Below, piece by piece: positions 8,585 to 14,031 of a stretch of 64,000 nucleotides of DNA (positions are counted from its first letter, which is position 1; the number at the start of each line of letters is the position of its first letter). The translations under genes were made by a program, and so were the position numbers. Below the pieces are notes generated by a model. That model was given only the letters and a program-made list of their open reading frames with translations. It did no database searches and was not told where the DNA came from. This stretch comes from Thioalkalivibrio thiocyanodenitrificans ARhD 1 (GTDB taxonomy: Bacteria > Pseudomonadota > Gammaproteobacteria > Ectothiorhodospirales > Ectothiorhodospiraceae), in the NCBI RefSeq assembly GCF_000378965.1, contig NZ_KB900536.1, forward strand, positions 817,583 through 881,582, in the 5' to 3' direction.

Positions 8585-9595
8585 TCAGGCCGCCGACATC
8601 ACGCAGGCATCCTGATCGAATTGCTCGTCCATGTACTGGGCTTTGAACTGCGCCCAGCCGTAGTAGTCGTTGTCGATCCAGAGACCGTCACCTTCGTACT
8701 TGACGGTTGTCGTGCTGCCGCCGTACGTCACCCGGACCTGTCCGTCATGCGGATGCTCTTTGTCCTTCTCGATGCGCACGGTCTCCAGCGTCTCGACCGT
8801 GGTCGTAATTCCGGCACCCGTCATGGTGCCGTTGATCTCCAGCTCGAATATGTCGTTGCCGACCGGCCGAACATGCATTGAATAGTCGAGTTCCCATACC
8901 CCGTGTTGTGTCGCCCCATCGCAGTCCGCCGCCATCTCCATGGTCAGGTCCAGTTCGACCAATCCCTCGCCGGAAGACGGGTCGTCCGTATGGGCGATGA
9001 TGGAACCATCCATCGAAAAATCGATTTCGTCACCGTCACCCGAAGACATTCTCAAGGTGAAGTTCTCATAGTCCACCCTGGCTACGTGCGTATACACGGA
9101 CACTTGGTCGTCGATGGAATAGGAGACATTACCGTCCATATACATCGAGAAGAATGGACTCTCGATGGTGCAGGCGTTGTATACGGCATCGTAACCATTG
9201 GCCCTTTCGGTCACCGACATGCTGCCCGAATGGCAGTCGGCGCTCCACGAAGACTGGATACCGATGCGCGTGGTTTCGCGGACCGCGTCCGGAATTGAGC
9301 CCGAAGAGGCCCGGGCAATTGCGAACATGTCATCCTCGAAATCCGATGGGGGGGTTGGGGACTCCTGCGCGTCTTCCACCATCTCTCCCCAATCCCCGGA
9401 ATCGCGGAACATCGCAGTGACGAAAGCGGCAGCCTCCTCCTTGCTGAACGCTCCGGGCGGTGCGCCGGAATCGTCAGGCGGCGGAGCGTCTCCGGATGAC
9501 GAAGAGCCTCCTCCGCAGCCCGTCGCCAAAACAACCACGATCAGGGCCGCGAGTGCCACGATCGGCAATGATCGGATCCAGTTTCTTGTCCACAT
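8585..9595 (-). CDS. Hypothetical acidic lipoprotein
   Basis: The 336-residue protein has a typical lipoprotein signal: a basic start (MWTRNWIRSLP), a hydrophobic core and the lipobox LATGC, followed by a Gly/Ser-rich linker (GGGSSSSGD) expected for a tethered surface protein. The mature part is rich in Asp/Glu and Thr/Ser with alternating beta-type residues, and it carries single cysteines that could pair. I do not recognise the family. It is the last of three exported proteins transcribed together away from the SARP-like regulator (8.6-10.8 kb), so it may belong to a regulated cell-surface set. Confidence 0.75.
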   Translation of the reverse strand: MWTRNWIRSLPIVALAALIVVVLATGCGGGSSSSGDAPPPDDSGAPPGAFSKEEAAAFVTAMFRDSGDWGEMVEDAQESPTPPSDFEDDMFAIARASSGSIPDAVRETTRIGIQSSWSADCHSGSMSVTERANGYDAVYNACTIESPFFSMYMDGNVSYSIDDQVSVYTHVARVDYENFTLRMSSGDGDEIDFSMDGSIIAHTDDPSSGEGLVELDLTMEMAADCDGATQHGVWELDYSMHVRPVGNDIFELEINGTMTGAGITTTVETLETVRIEKDKEHPHDGQVRVTYGGSTTTVKYEGDGLWIDNDYYGWAQFKAQYMDEQFDQDACVMSAA

Positions 9596-9748
9596 GGTTT
9601 TTCCCCTCCGTTTTCGGGACTTCAGTTCAGCCCTTCCGGAACGGACACCTTCCGTGAAGGCCGCCCGACCGGGAGAGCGGCTCCATCATGGCCGCATCCC
9701 CTTACAAGACGCTTACCCGCCTCCCCCAGATCCGGCCCTCGAGCACCA

Positions 9749-13800: not shown

Positions 13801-14031
13801 GAACAGGGACAGGACGCCGCCTGTGCGGCTGCCTCCCGTGCCTTGGAGATCGACCCGCTTCACGAGCCCTTGTGTCGGATCGTACTTGAGCTGGCCCGTG
13901 CGCGCCGGGACCGCGAACTCGCCGAACAGGCGTATGACCGCTGTCGTCATGCCTTGGCACGGGAGGGGAAGGGAGAACCCACAGAGAAGTTGCGAACCCT
14001 TTATGAAGCGATACGGCAGGCCGTTTGCTGA
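10852..14031 (+). CDS. Large SARP/MalT-like ATPase transcriptional regulator
   Basis: The predicted regulator has 1059 residues. The domains in order are: a P-loop NTPase with Walker A GPPGAGKT at residues 69-76 (STAND/MalT type); a long helical region of TPR-like repeats (roughly 350-830); a winged-helix DNA-binding domain of the OmpR/SARP type (about 845-930, with LRLQALGVLRVEG and a later RRAFDTLLYRLRRRLR); and a C-terminal BTAD domain (ALEIDPLHEPLCRIVLELAR). Placing the DNA-binding domain at the C-terminal side is unusual compared with classical SARPs. The open frame extends further upstream, but the ATG at 10852 fits the divergent promoter arrangement with the adhesin-like gene. It probably controls the three exported proteins at 8.6-10.8 kb. 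Confidence 0.8.
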   Translation: MTRVERLAKRQGHPAVRVTRQHANPAAMQGDSAISMRHRPPPGADGWLDGRRDATLAKLSRSAILWIDGPPGAGKTVLAVTLLRARPGKRLWLRLAAEDHDPNHLLEDVIMALHGTGTGPGGSAHAGSLTHPGEEIANLLAPHAPYTLVLDGADVLGECTGFHRLIEHLATACPADSAVVITARMPPPPSLERLRMEGLVDRVSWNDLRLSSDEAAGAAGTILPPEDLNPEAVADALRRSRGWLAGFRALLEAEAGGCGTLGSLNRYLEHELFSDLERADRELLVTLAVREEVPRPVVEALAGPEACDRLHDLARQNRLIEWRGDHVVLHPQLAACLRDLDREGLARRHCRLGDALAAAGAEAQAVEEWLSAGEWSRSGEMIARLAPELVRNGEHPRVRDWLRRIPEGSRPVGSRLHLWHALALVPEDAAAAYDELVAALPALHGNGDYSGAALAWAGLVEQAWLRWGDFSRARWLLDVLDELGPQRIEELEPSAAAQLSAAALLLIGVIAPGGHRGAAWIAAAERVVRLSISDRDRMRILHVLLVTDVWVYGNRVRATRTVEQGRIAQVRGRLPPLQEQMWLAAVAGYQLWFDPDPHAARLTVESALRRAEEHGVHLWDFQLQALGACAALRSGDDHLARDWVARTRLTTEPGQATDASFQAWVCGWTLLRGGDVAGAAGIAEEAWQLIDGRGPDNAQQLARLAVARARRRLGQHRTTLAEAVAIDRVARHRDMGLYRWLARLTAAQSLRDCGRHRWSDRLLEQALVEGQSQGYLCIPWCERGELEDLCGRGVALGVDIRYLCQLARTNGLDDWQPPPHAPASGWPLRLQALGVLRVEGATGTIRIVGKGARLLRWLAAAGENGIAEADVLDALWPDAEGDRARRAFDTLLYRLRRRLRIPDAVQLRDRRLTLNTAACRTDFGALEHHLKAAMNGSLTAWEDALELAQDSGVEAAHWPPPAGPRLRRRFHDAVDTMVHRLAAEQGQDAACAAASRALEIDPLHEPLCRIVLELARARRDRELAEQAYDRCRHALAREGKGEPTEKLRTLYEAIRQAVC

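Follow-up and report, generated by a model that had tools for sequence, protein, structure and literature searches.

A two-gene module of stem and W-tail genes

The window analysed here is a stretch of 64,000 nucleotides from Thioalkalivibrio thiocyanodenitrificans ARhD 1, in which a gene encoding a large regulator lies divergent from three genes encoding exported proteins, namely a fibre-like head protein, a small lipoprotein and a larger lipoprotein (Table 1). The original prediction, made from the sequence alone, viewed these four genes as a regulated surface-fibre system in which the lipoproteins could hold a released head. Our analysis shifts the emphasis: the regulator belongs to a common type, and the interesting part is the tiny, unremarkable-looking lipoprotein that, with the head protein, makes up a well-supported two-gene module. 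The head protein carries the motif xVxIPxxFxxxTxAxAxEVNxNF (stem motif) and the small lipoprotein, whose gene begins 5 bp past the head-gene stop, ends with the consensus W-[DN]-x-M-x-W-[DN]-x-G-x-W (W-tail). The window pair is a member by both marks, having the stem motif right behind the signal peptide and an adjacent W-tail gene. We propose, with about even confidence, that this module puts a trimeric fibre on the cell surface, where a lipid-anchored peptide holds it.

Four full-length relatives of the head protein were found in the family (one in G001, one in G004 and two in T. halophilus, G015), each directly followed by a tiny lipoprotein. The tail ends are alike while the bodies of these lipoproteins differ (window, NVWNEMKWNEGFWH; T. 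halophilus, STWGEMAWDEGNWQ and STWDEMAWDEGEWQ; G004, SSWDRMYWDQGRWD). A DNA pattern of the tail, blind to the head, was searched in 47 genomes of the family and 369 genomes of the class (Gammaproteobacteria), with the reversed pattern as a control. It matched five times in the family and 10 times in the class, i.e. at 14 distinct places as the window is in both sets, versus 0 and one match for the reversed pattern. At all 14 places, a stem gene adjoins the open reading frame (ORF) ended by the tail: each of the five family matches lies directly after a head gene, and in the nine new class matches the tail ends a small ORF beside a gene whose product has the stem motif and a start resembling a signal peptide. 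At the genome level, a stem was found in 9/9 tail genomes versus 27/369 overall (Fisher test, 1.5e-11), a value that is partly circular because 6 of the 28 stem rows came from tail loci. Therefore, a hidden Markov model (HMM) of the stem was built without the class-search rows; it recognised the stem in 9/9 new loci (E <= 8e-9 for 100,000 sequences).

The search from the stem side used profile A4 and gave 43 matches in the class, 27 of the 369 genomes being positive. Among the 30 matches that were fetched, 19 have an adjoining tail, six a looser W-tail, a category with no chance control (for instance WDDTHWDEGEWQ and the cysteine-bearing CVWGSSNWGGCSWDS), and five none. Furthermore, the head alignment was used to scan GTDB; of the 79 loci obtained, many have no more than the N-terminal motif in common. 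Twenty were taken as full-length heads: 16 carry the tail on an adjacent ORF, one carries a variant (L051) and three have none adjacent. In L046, the neighbour of the tail is another stem gene, which itself lies beside the head. Counting all 79 loci, 25 have a tail ORF, which in one case is 3.7 kb away (L048).

The tail gene precedes the stem gene in 23 cases and follows it in 11, and the two lie on opposite strands in two. Pair-bearing contigs are labelled Gammaproteobacteria, Aquificales, Nitrospirota, Desulfobacteraceae, Archangium and Planctomycetota, many being metagenome bins that may be mislabelled. No single reading frame joining a tail to a stem was seen in the loci compared. Overall, stem and W-tail genes lie side by side much more often than chance would allow, whichever of the two comes first, both in Gammaproteobacteria and in contigs that bear the labels of five other phyla. 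Two termini stay constant, the mature N-terminus of the stem protein and the C-terminal 11-12 residues of the tail protein, while heads and linkers vary.

The neighbourhood could in principle reflect nothing but shared expression, the stems being periplasmic or released and the tail proteins making no contact with them. Stems without an adjacent tail do occur, and the stem-tail interaction is a prediction. However, shared expression does not predict that the termini stay constant while the rest varies, nor that the gene order flips between lineages with the pairing kept, and we regard this explanation as very improbable.

The W-tail lipoproteins

We tabulated 36 distinct tail ORFs, retrieved partly through the stem and partly through the tail. 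The regular expression used (W..[MLIV].W[DNGS]...W at the ORF end) requires the three tryptophans; at the positions that it leaves free or loose, Met is found at position 4 in 34/36, Asp or Asn at position 7 in 36/36 and at position 2 in 34/36, and Gly at position 9 in 28/36. At tail positions other than Trp and Met, codons vary synonymously in the matched DNA, which argues for selection on the peptide. The original prediction described the small lipoprotein itself but overlooked this conserved tail.

A lipobox was recognised in 32 of the 36 tail proteins (30 by script, L069 and L111 by eye; the cleavage sites of L046 and L119 were corrected by eye). The other four are three Marinicella-type proteins (L053, L056 and L057), exported without a lipobox, and one protein cut by a contig end (L062). 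Two Marinicella-type proteins open with a DLIFKAGFE motif behind the signal peptide, which may replace the lipid anchor. After correction, the residue following the lipobox cysteine is Gly in 26 proteins, Ser in four, His in two and never Asp. Asp at this +2 position is the classical inner-membrane retention signal of lipoproteins, so the tail lipoproteins do not carry this signal. The linkers, measured by script, range from 11 to 81 residues (median 22). Judging from these sequences, the small lipoprotein of most members consists of a lipid anchor joined by a flexible linker to a peptide of 11 residues. The tail also terminates longer ORFs in L164 and L166.

The window lipoprotein (P0003) had been called calcium-binding-like, a label that we abandoned because its acidic linker is not conserved, the linkers of the relatives being mostly rich in Gly and Ser. 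Variant tails with paired cysteines stand beside stem genes in L157 (740-916, CIWGEDGWDECDWA) and L159 (1735-2040, CVWGSSNWGGCSWDS) and are possibly a disulfide-locked form of the tail.

The small lipoprotein could act otherwise than as a permanent tether, as a transient helper of fibre assembly or export in the way of SadB for SadA. Trimeric adhesins with a lipoprotein helper encoded in the same operon are known, as with SadA and SadB (PMC3953254), and a capping or recruiting peptide would also be expected to be tiny and to have a conserved tail. However, SadB has a solved structure, while most members here have only the lipobox, the linker and the 11-residue tail; in the window lipoprotein, no Pfam family matched at E <= 1 and no SadB-like folded MATH domain was found. 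The lack of Asp at +2 and of any other anchor found on the fibre also speaks against a helper, which we consider fairly unlikely.

Stem proteins and their distal domains

The stem motif, in its longer form xVxIPxxFxxxTxAxAxEVNxNFxAVxxxVNDN, starts within a few residues of the likely end of the signal peptide and runs into a predicted helix. In the window head, the signal peptide is followed by a coiled-coil helix (residues 39-72) and by short beta-roll-like strands, the latter seen in a low-confidence model. Pfam found no head family in this protein and no anchor domain, YadA-type C-terminal beta-barrel included (the sequence ends ...GGRNQPAHYTDQTIPAIE). The coiled coil and the lack of a membrane anchor, which had been predicted, are thus upheld, the beta-roll-like part being tentative. 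A weak match was obtained with UspA1 (3pr7, 9e-4).

The distal part of the stem proteins varies, from a YadA/UspA-like roll to FGE/C-lectin-like, fibrinogen-like or collagen-like ends. FGE-sulfatase (a C-lectin-like fold), Fibrinogen_C, CTHRC1_C and Fibritin_C are above the Pfam cutoff, and COLFI, which occurs with Fibrinogen_C, is at the cutoff. UspA1_rep and LbR_Ice_bind in relatives are both below it, LbR_Ice_bind scoring as well or better. Several of these domain types are trimeric, which supports a trimeric fibre, short of proof.

In six stem proteins (L127, L128, L131, L132, L152 and L155), the FGE-sulfatase/C-lectin-like end finishes in GFRC. Such ends resemble the targets of diversity-generating retroelements; no reverse transcriptase was noticed by eye in the gene lists near these stems, no profile search having been made. 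In addition, the genome of the window encodes two more proteins with the stem motif (L033, 5950-6495, with no W-tail seen beside it, and G000:C1:1335912-1336019). One tail lipoprotein might serve several fibres.

A likely phage connection

Some cellular stem proteins match PHROGs of phage tails (tail protein, 1.5e-6; fibritin neck whisker, 7.1e-6). The window head itself gave no match at 1e-5 in a tblastn search of an annotated phage collection. In IMG/VR, a stem pattern of ten residues matches 294 stretches, 178 of which were verified relatives, and the 80 best loci were inspected. All 80 score E <= 1.2e-6 with the cellular stem HMM, and PxxF stands just upstream, outside the search pattern, in 79. 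The EVN core lies 14-18 residues from the first Met in 67 of these loci, too near for a signal peptide; seven (L316, L317, L324-L327 and L329) have a longer, signal-like start. Genes were scanned in four phage contigs: virion or tail matches lie near or in the EVN gene in L293, L307 and L318, and no known function was found in L254. The EVN protein of L307 has a tail collar domain (PF07484, 8.5e-14; PHROG 1800, tail collar fiber, 1.1e-19).

From this resemblance, the cellular and phage stem motifs are likely to be of common descent, in whichever direction. In many tail fibres, the N-terminal end is the one attached to the virion; cellular stems therefore look like a phage fibre base preceded by a signal peptide. 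A bolder and rather doubtful extension is that the virion-docking end of phage tail fibres has been turned into a general cell-surface display system across several phyla, which would have gained a Sec signal peptide and exchangeable heads and would use a lipid-anchored 11-residue W peptide on a disordered linker as its dock. If true, phage-derived display would be a previously unrecognised way of anchoring surface fibres in Gram-negative bacteria.

Proposed tether and export

The tethering proposal rests on the two termini conserved on neighbouring proteins, the lipobox and the failure to find another anchor. The fibre would be a homotrimer, to judge from the coiled coil and from the trimeric types to which several distal domains belong. 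The lipoprotein would be lipidated and sorted to the outer membrane, and its flexible linker would present the W-tail. Binding of the W-tail to the stem motif at the fibre base would then tether the anchorless fibre, most likely on the cell surface. A phage-type fibre base, endowed with a signal peptide, would in this way be docked to a lipid-anchored peptide in place of a virion. The earlier idea that the lipoproteins could hold the head was a good guess for the small one, because the head itself lacks an anchor and the link between the two is strong; the larger one is not conserved with the pair.

Type II secretion would be the best candidate for export of the fibre across the outer membrane. 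GspG (threshold 1e-20) was found in 24/27 stem genomes versus 219/342 others (p 0.005, genome size and relatedness being ignored). It is also present in all four family genomes with a pair. Slam is rare, being found in 2 of the 16 pair-bearing genomes examined. These distributions would also suit a scheme in which the lipoprotein is a cargo label, the stem trimer and the lipoprotein leaving jointly through type II secretion with the W-tail or the stem as secretion signal. Nevertheless, three stem genomes (G147, G176 and G386) have no GspG match, although G147 and G176 possess pairs. Furthermore, GspG is present in three of the four checked family genomes without a pair (G002 alone lacks it; size and phylogeny are again ignored). 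Both facts count against type II export of the fibre, and the cargo scheme is in our view unlikely.

Several other observations weigh against the tether. The AlphaFold2 model of the head, computed as a monomer, is poor (predicted local distance difference test, pLDDT, 65; predicted template modelling score, pTM, 0.40). Foldseek found no match to it at E <= 0.001 in the PDB or viral libraries, so no claim on the fold rests on this model. A part of the distal-domain matches is weak. The three Marinicella-type tail proteins (L053 8756-9178, L056 7085-7495 and L057 796-1206; 130-134 amino acids) have no lipobox, so the lipid anchor is not universal. None of the 80 phage loci has a W-tail neighbour, which implies another use of the stem motif there. 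Finally, tails are missing beside some cellular stems: at 5 of the 30 class loci, beside 3 of the 20 full-length heads of the GTDB scan (L048, L054 and L058) and in 54 of its 79 loci, many of which have the N-terminal motif alone.

The regulator and the flanking genes

The regulator carries the P-loop GPPGAGKT, and Pfam P-loop families match its N-terminus. The NCBIfam MalT family matches at 2.3e-7, far below the family cutoff, and Pfam BTAD matches residues 951-1055 (8e-6, above the cutoff). Profile A3, built from six relatives of the regulator (1026 columns), matches the solved MalT 8bob through columns 9-374 (1.3e-46), and AfsR 8hvr (1.7e-11) and EmbR 2fez (5.7e-10) through columns about 784-1024 of 1026. 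With both a winged helix and BTAD (BTAD by Pfam, the whole SARP part by the profile against AfsR and EmbR), the regulator can be assigned to the SARP class. Its domain order is the reverse of that of AfsR because the ATPase maps N-terminally and the SARP part C-terminally. Pfam BTAD and profile A3 thus bear out the MalT-like N-terminus and the C-terminal SARP of the original prediction, but not its tetratricopeptide-repeat (TPR) region: no TPR family of Pfam matched in the middle of the protein.

MalT carries a LuxR domain at the C-terminal position; its ATPase domain (8bob) resembles that of the regulator by profile, and the SARP part of the regulator sits where MalT has the LuxR domain. The regulator shares a SARP domain with AfsR (8hvr) and EmbR by profile, but the SARP part is N-terminal in AfsR and the classical large SARPs and C-terminal here (domain content of AfsR according to PMC10936776).

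This type of regulator is common, not rare: with at most two candidates scored per genome, a profile match at E <= 1e-60 was found in 54 of the 369 sampled Gammaproteobacteria, 36 being nearly whole-length, as read from the list. The genome of the window encodes a second copy, 32% identical to the window regulator. Immediately downstream of this paralogue is an apparent two-partner secretion pair (L032, G000:C1:2093000-2106000, 5873-13000), composed of TpsB (9144-10826) and then TpsA (from 10862), both named by eye from the sequence. The regulator type may hence serve surface proteins more widely.

Joint conservation of the four genes, as the original prediction would have it, was not the general pattern. 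Among 58 genomes, that of the window counted, 12 have a regulator match and four a head match. Pairs also occur apart from the regulator: two head/lipoprotein pairs lie in tandem in T. halophilus, whose genome has no regulator match, and the pair of G004 has no adjoining regulator. Conversely, the head has no match in G031, the genome whose regulator (52%) is the nearest one outside the genus. The larger lipoprotein is barely conserved: in 40 genomes (own included), it was found in the genome of the window, in its sister G001 (97%) and in G015 (25%, away from the pair). Moreover, when regulator neighbourhoods were scanned with the stem HMM and the tail pattern, a pair was found in 1 of the 43 others, several contigs ending near the gene. 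In this case (G079:C204, L211), a regulator (346-3249), a W-tail lipoprotein (3450-3605), a YadA-like head (3644-4414) and a lipoprotein (4441-5052) follow each other on one strand. Its regulator is only 25% identical to that of the window, suggesting that the link arose or survived there separately. The same contig encodes further on (5918-18125) a lipoprotein with a metalloprotease-like HELGH (by eye), proteins of 1191 and 1297 amino acids and a second stem gene, and it perhaps holds a larger surface-structure cluster.

A surface-fibre system of four genes, with the divergent SARP-type ATPase in control, would account for this distant second case and for the position of the paralogue upstream of the apparent two-partner secretion pair. 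It would also fit a regulator match in 8/27 stem genomes versus 46/342 others (p 0.03; in G362, the SARP end alone matches). However, among the 43 other neighbourhoods, a regulator homologue adjoins a pair in this one case, the 42 remaining neighbourhoods, some of them cut by contig ends, showing neither stem nor tail. Few of the pairs read have an adjoining regulator, and the larger lipoprotein is not conserved. Exported genes are not clearly enriched among regulator neighbours either: 8/28 versus 31/210 (p 0.06) by a crude signal-peptide rule, which misses the apparent TpsB, relies on rough gene starts and left out the window, where a long plus-strand frame hides the head gene. We therefore judge the four-gene system quite unlikely. 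The preferred reading remains the two-gene module; the divergent SARP-type ATPase may control the pair in this genome, a regulatory link that is possible but weak.

Both predicted lipoproteins are present. The 87-bp gap between the regulator and the divergent exported genes is real, given the conventional ATG at 10852; the regulator start and the gap both depend on this choice, because the frame is open upstream to 10288. A promoter scan of the gap gave a single sigma-70-like match (10793-10821, + strand), at chance level. Just downstream of the larger lipoprotein, a 65-amino-acid open frame with coding signal (8341-8538, - strand) is also found in G001 (L035, 13934-14131).

Table 1. Genes and sequence features of the locus (window positions)
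Feature	Position	Strand	Description
Head/stem fibre protein	10030-10764	-	244 amino acids; signal peptide, stem motif, predicted coiled coil and beta-roll-like head; membrane anchor not found
Stem motif, conserved, mature N-terminus of head protein	10585-10695	-	Residues about 24-60, QVNIPYTFQAGDTARASEVNANF...
Small lipoprotein	9749-10024	-	91 amino acids; lipobox LTAC, flexible acidic linker, C-terminal W-tail
W-tail WNEMKWNEGFW of small lipoprotein	9755-9787	-	Residues 80-90; its conserved part
Regulator, MalT-like ATPase and C-terminal SARP (winged helix and BTAD)	10852-14031	+	1059 amino acids; neighbour, outside the conserved module
Larger lipoprotein	8585-9595	-	336 amino acids; lipobox ATGC; conservation with the pair not found
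Divergent intergenic region	10765-10851		87 bp, between regulator and head gene

Comparison with known systems

NCBIfam has no above-cutoff match for the four proteins of the window, for five tail lipoproteins, for one Marinicella-type tail protein or for four stem proteins, and Pfam has none for the head and both lipoproteins of the window. A search of the open-licence literature with narrow terms found no publication on the stem/W-tail pair or on the tail, which is not proof of absence. The module gives a testable role to lipoproteins of 45-90 residues that match no family above cutoff and to exported coiled-coil proteins in which no anchor is seen. If the W-tail binds the stem, it would serve as a minimal and portable means of tethering trimeric surface fibres, and it would connect bacterial adhesins with the tail fibres of phages.

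A phage tail collar fibre (PHROG 1800, PF07484) and small phage proteins carry IPxxFxxGTxAxAxEVNxNF at their extreme N-terminus, like the motif of the cellular stems. They differ from the latter in having no W-tail neighbour in any of the 80 loci and, in 67/80, no room for a signal peptide.

The SadA/SadB system shares with the present module a lipoprotein gene beside a gene for a trimeric fibre. According to PMC3953254, SadB is an inner-membrane trimeric lipoprotein of solved structure that was compared with MATH domains, and it improves the display of SadA, no direct interaction being shown there. SadB is thus a folded inner-membrane trimer and SadA an autotransporter (PMC3953254), whereas the module described here has a short tail on a linker and a fibre with no barrel.

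YadA/UspA-like repeats behind a coiled coil, as in the trimeric autotransporter adhesins YadA and UspA1, may be present in the window head (weak match to UspA1 3pr7, 9e-4; UspA1_rep below cutoff in relatives). Unlike these adhesins, in which a beta-barrel provides the anchor, the head protein has none that could be found; its head lies behind an N-terminal stem, and its partner is a W-tail lipoprotein.

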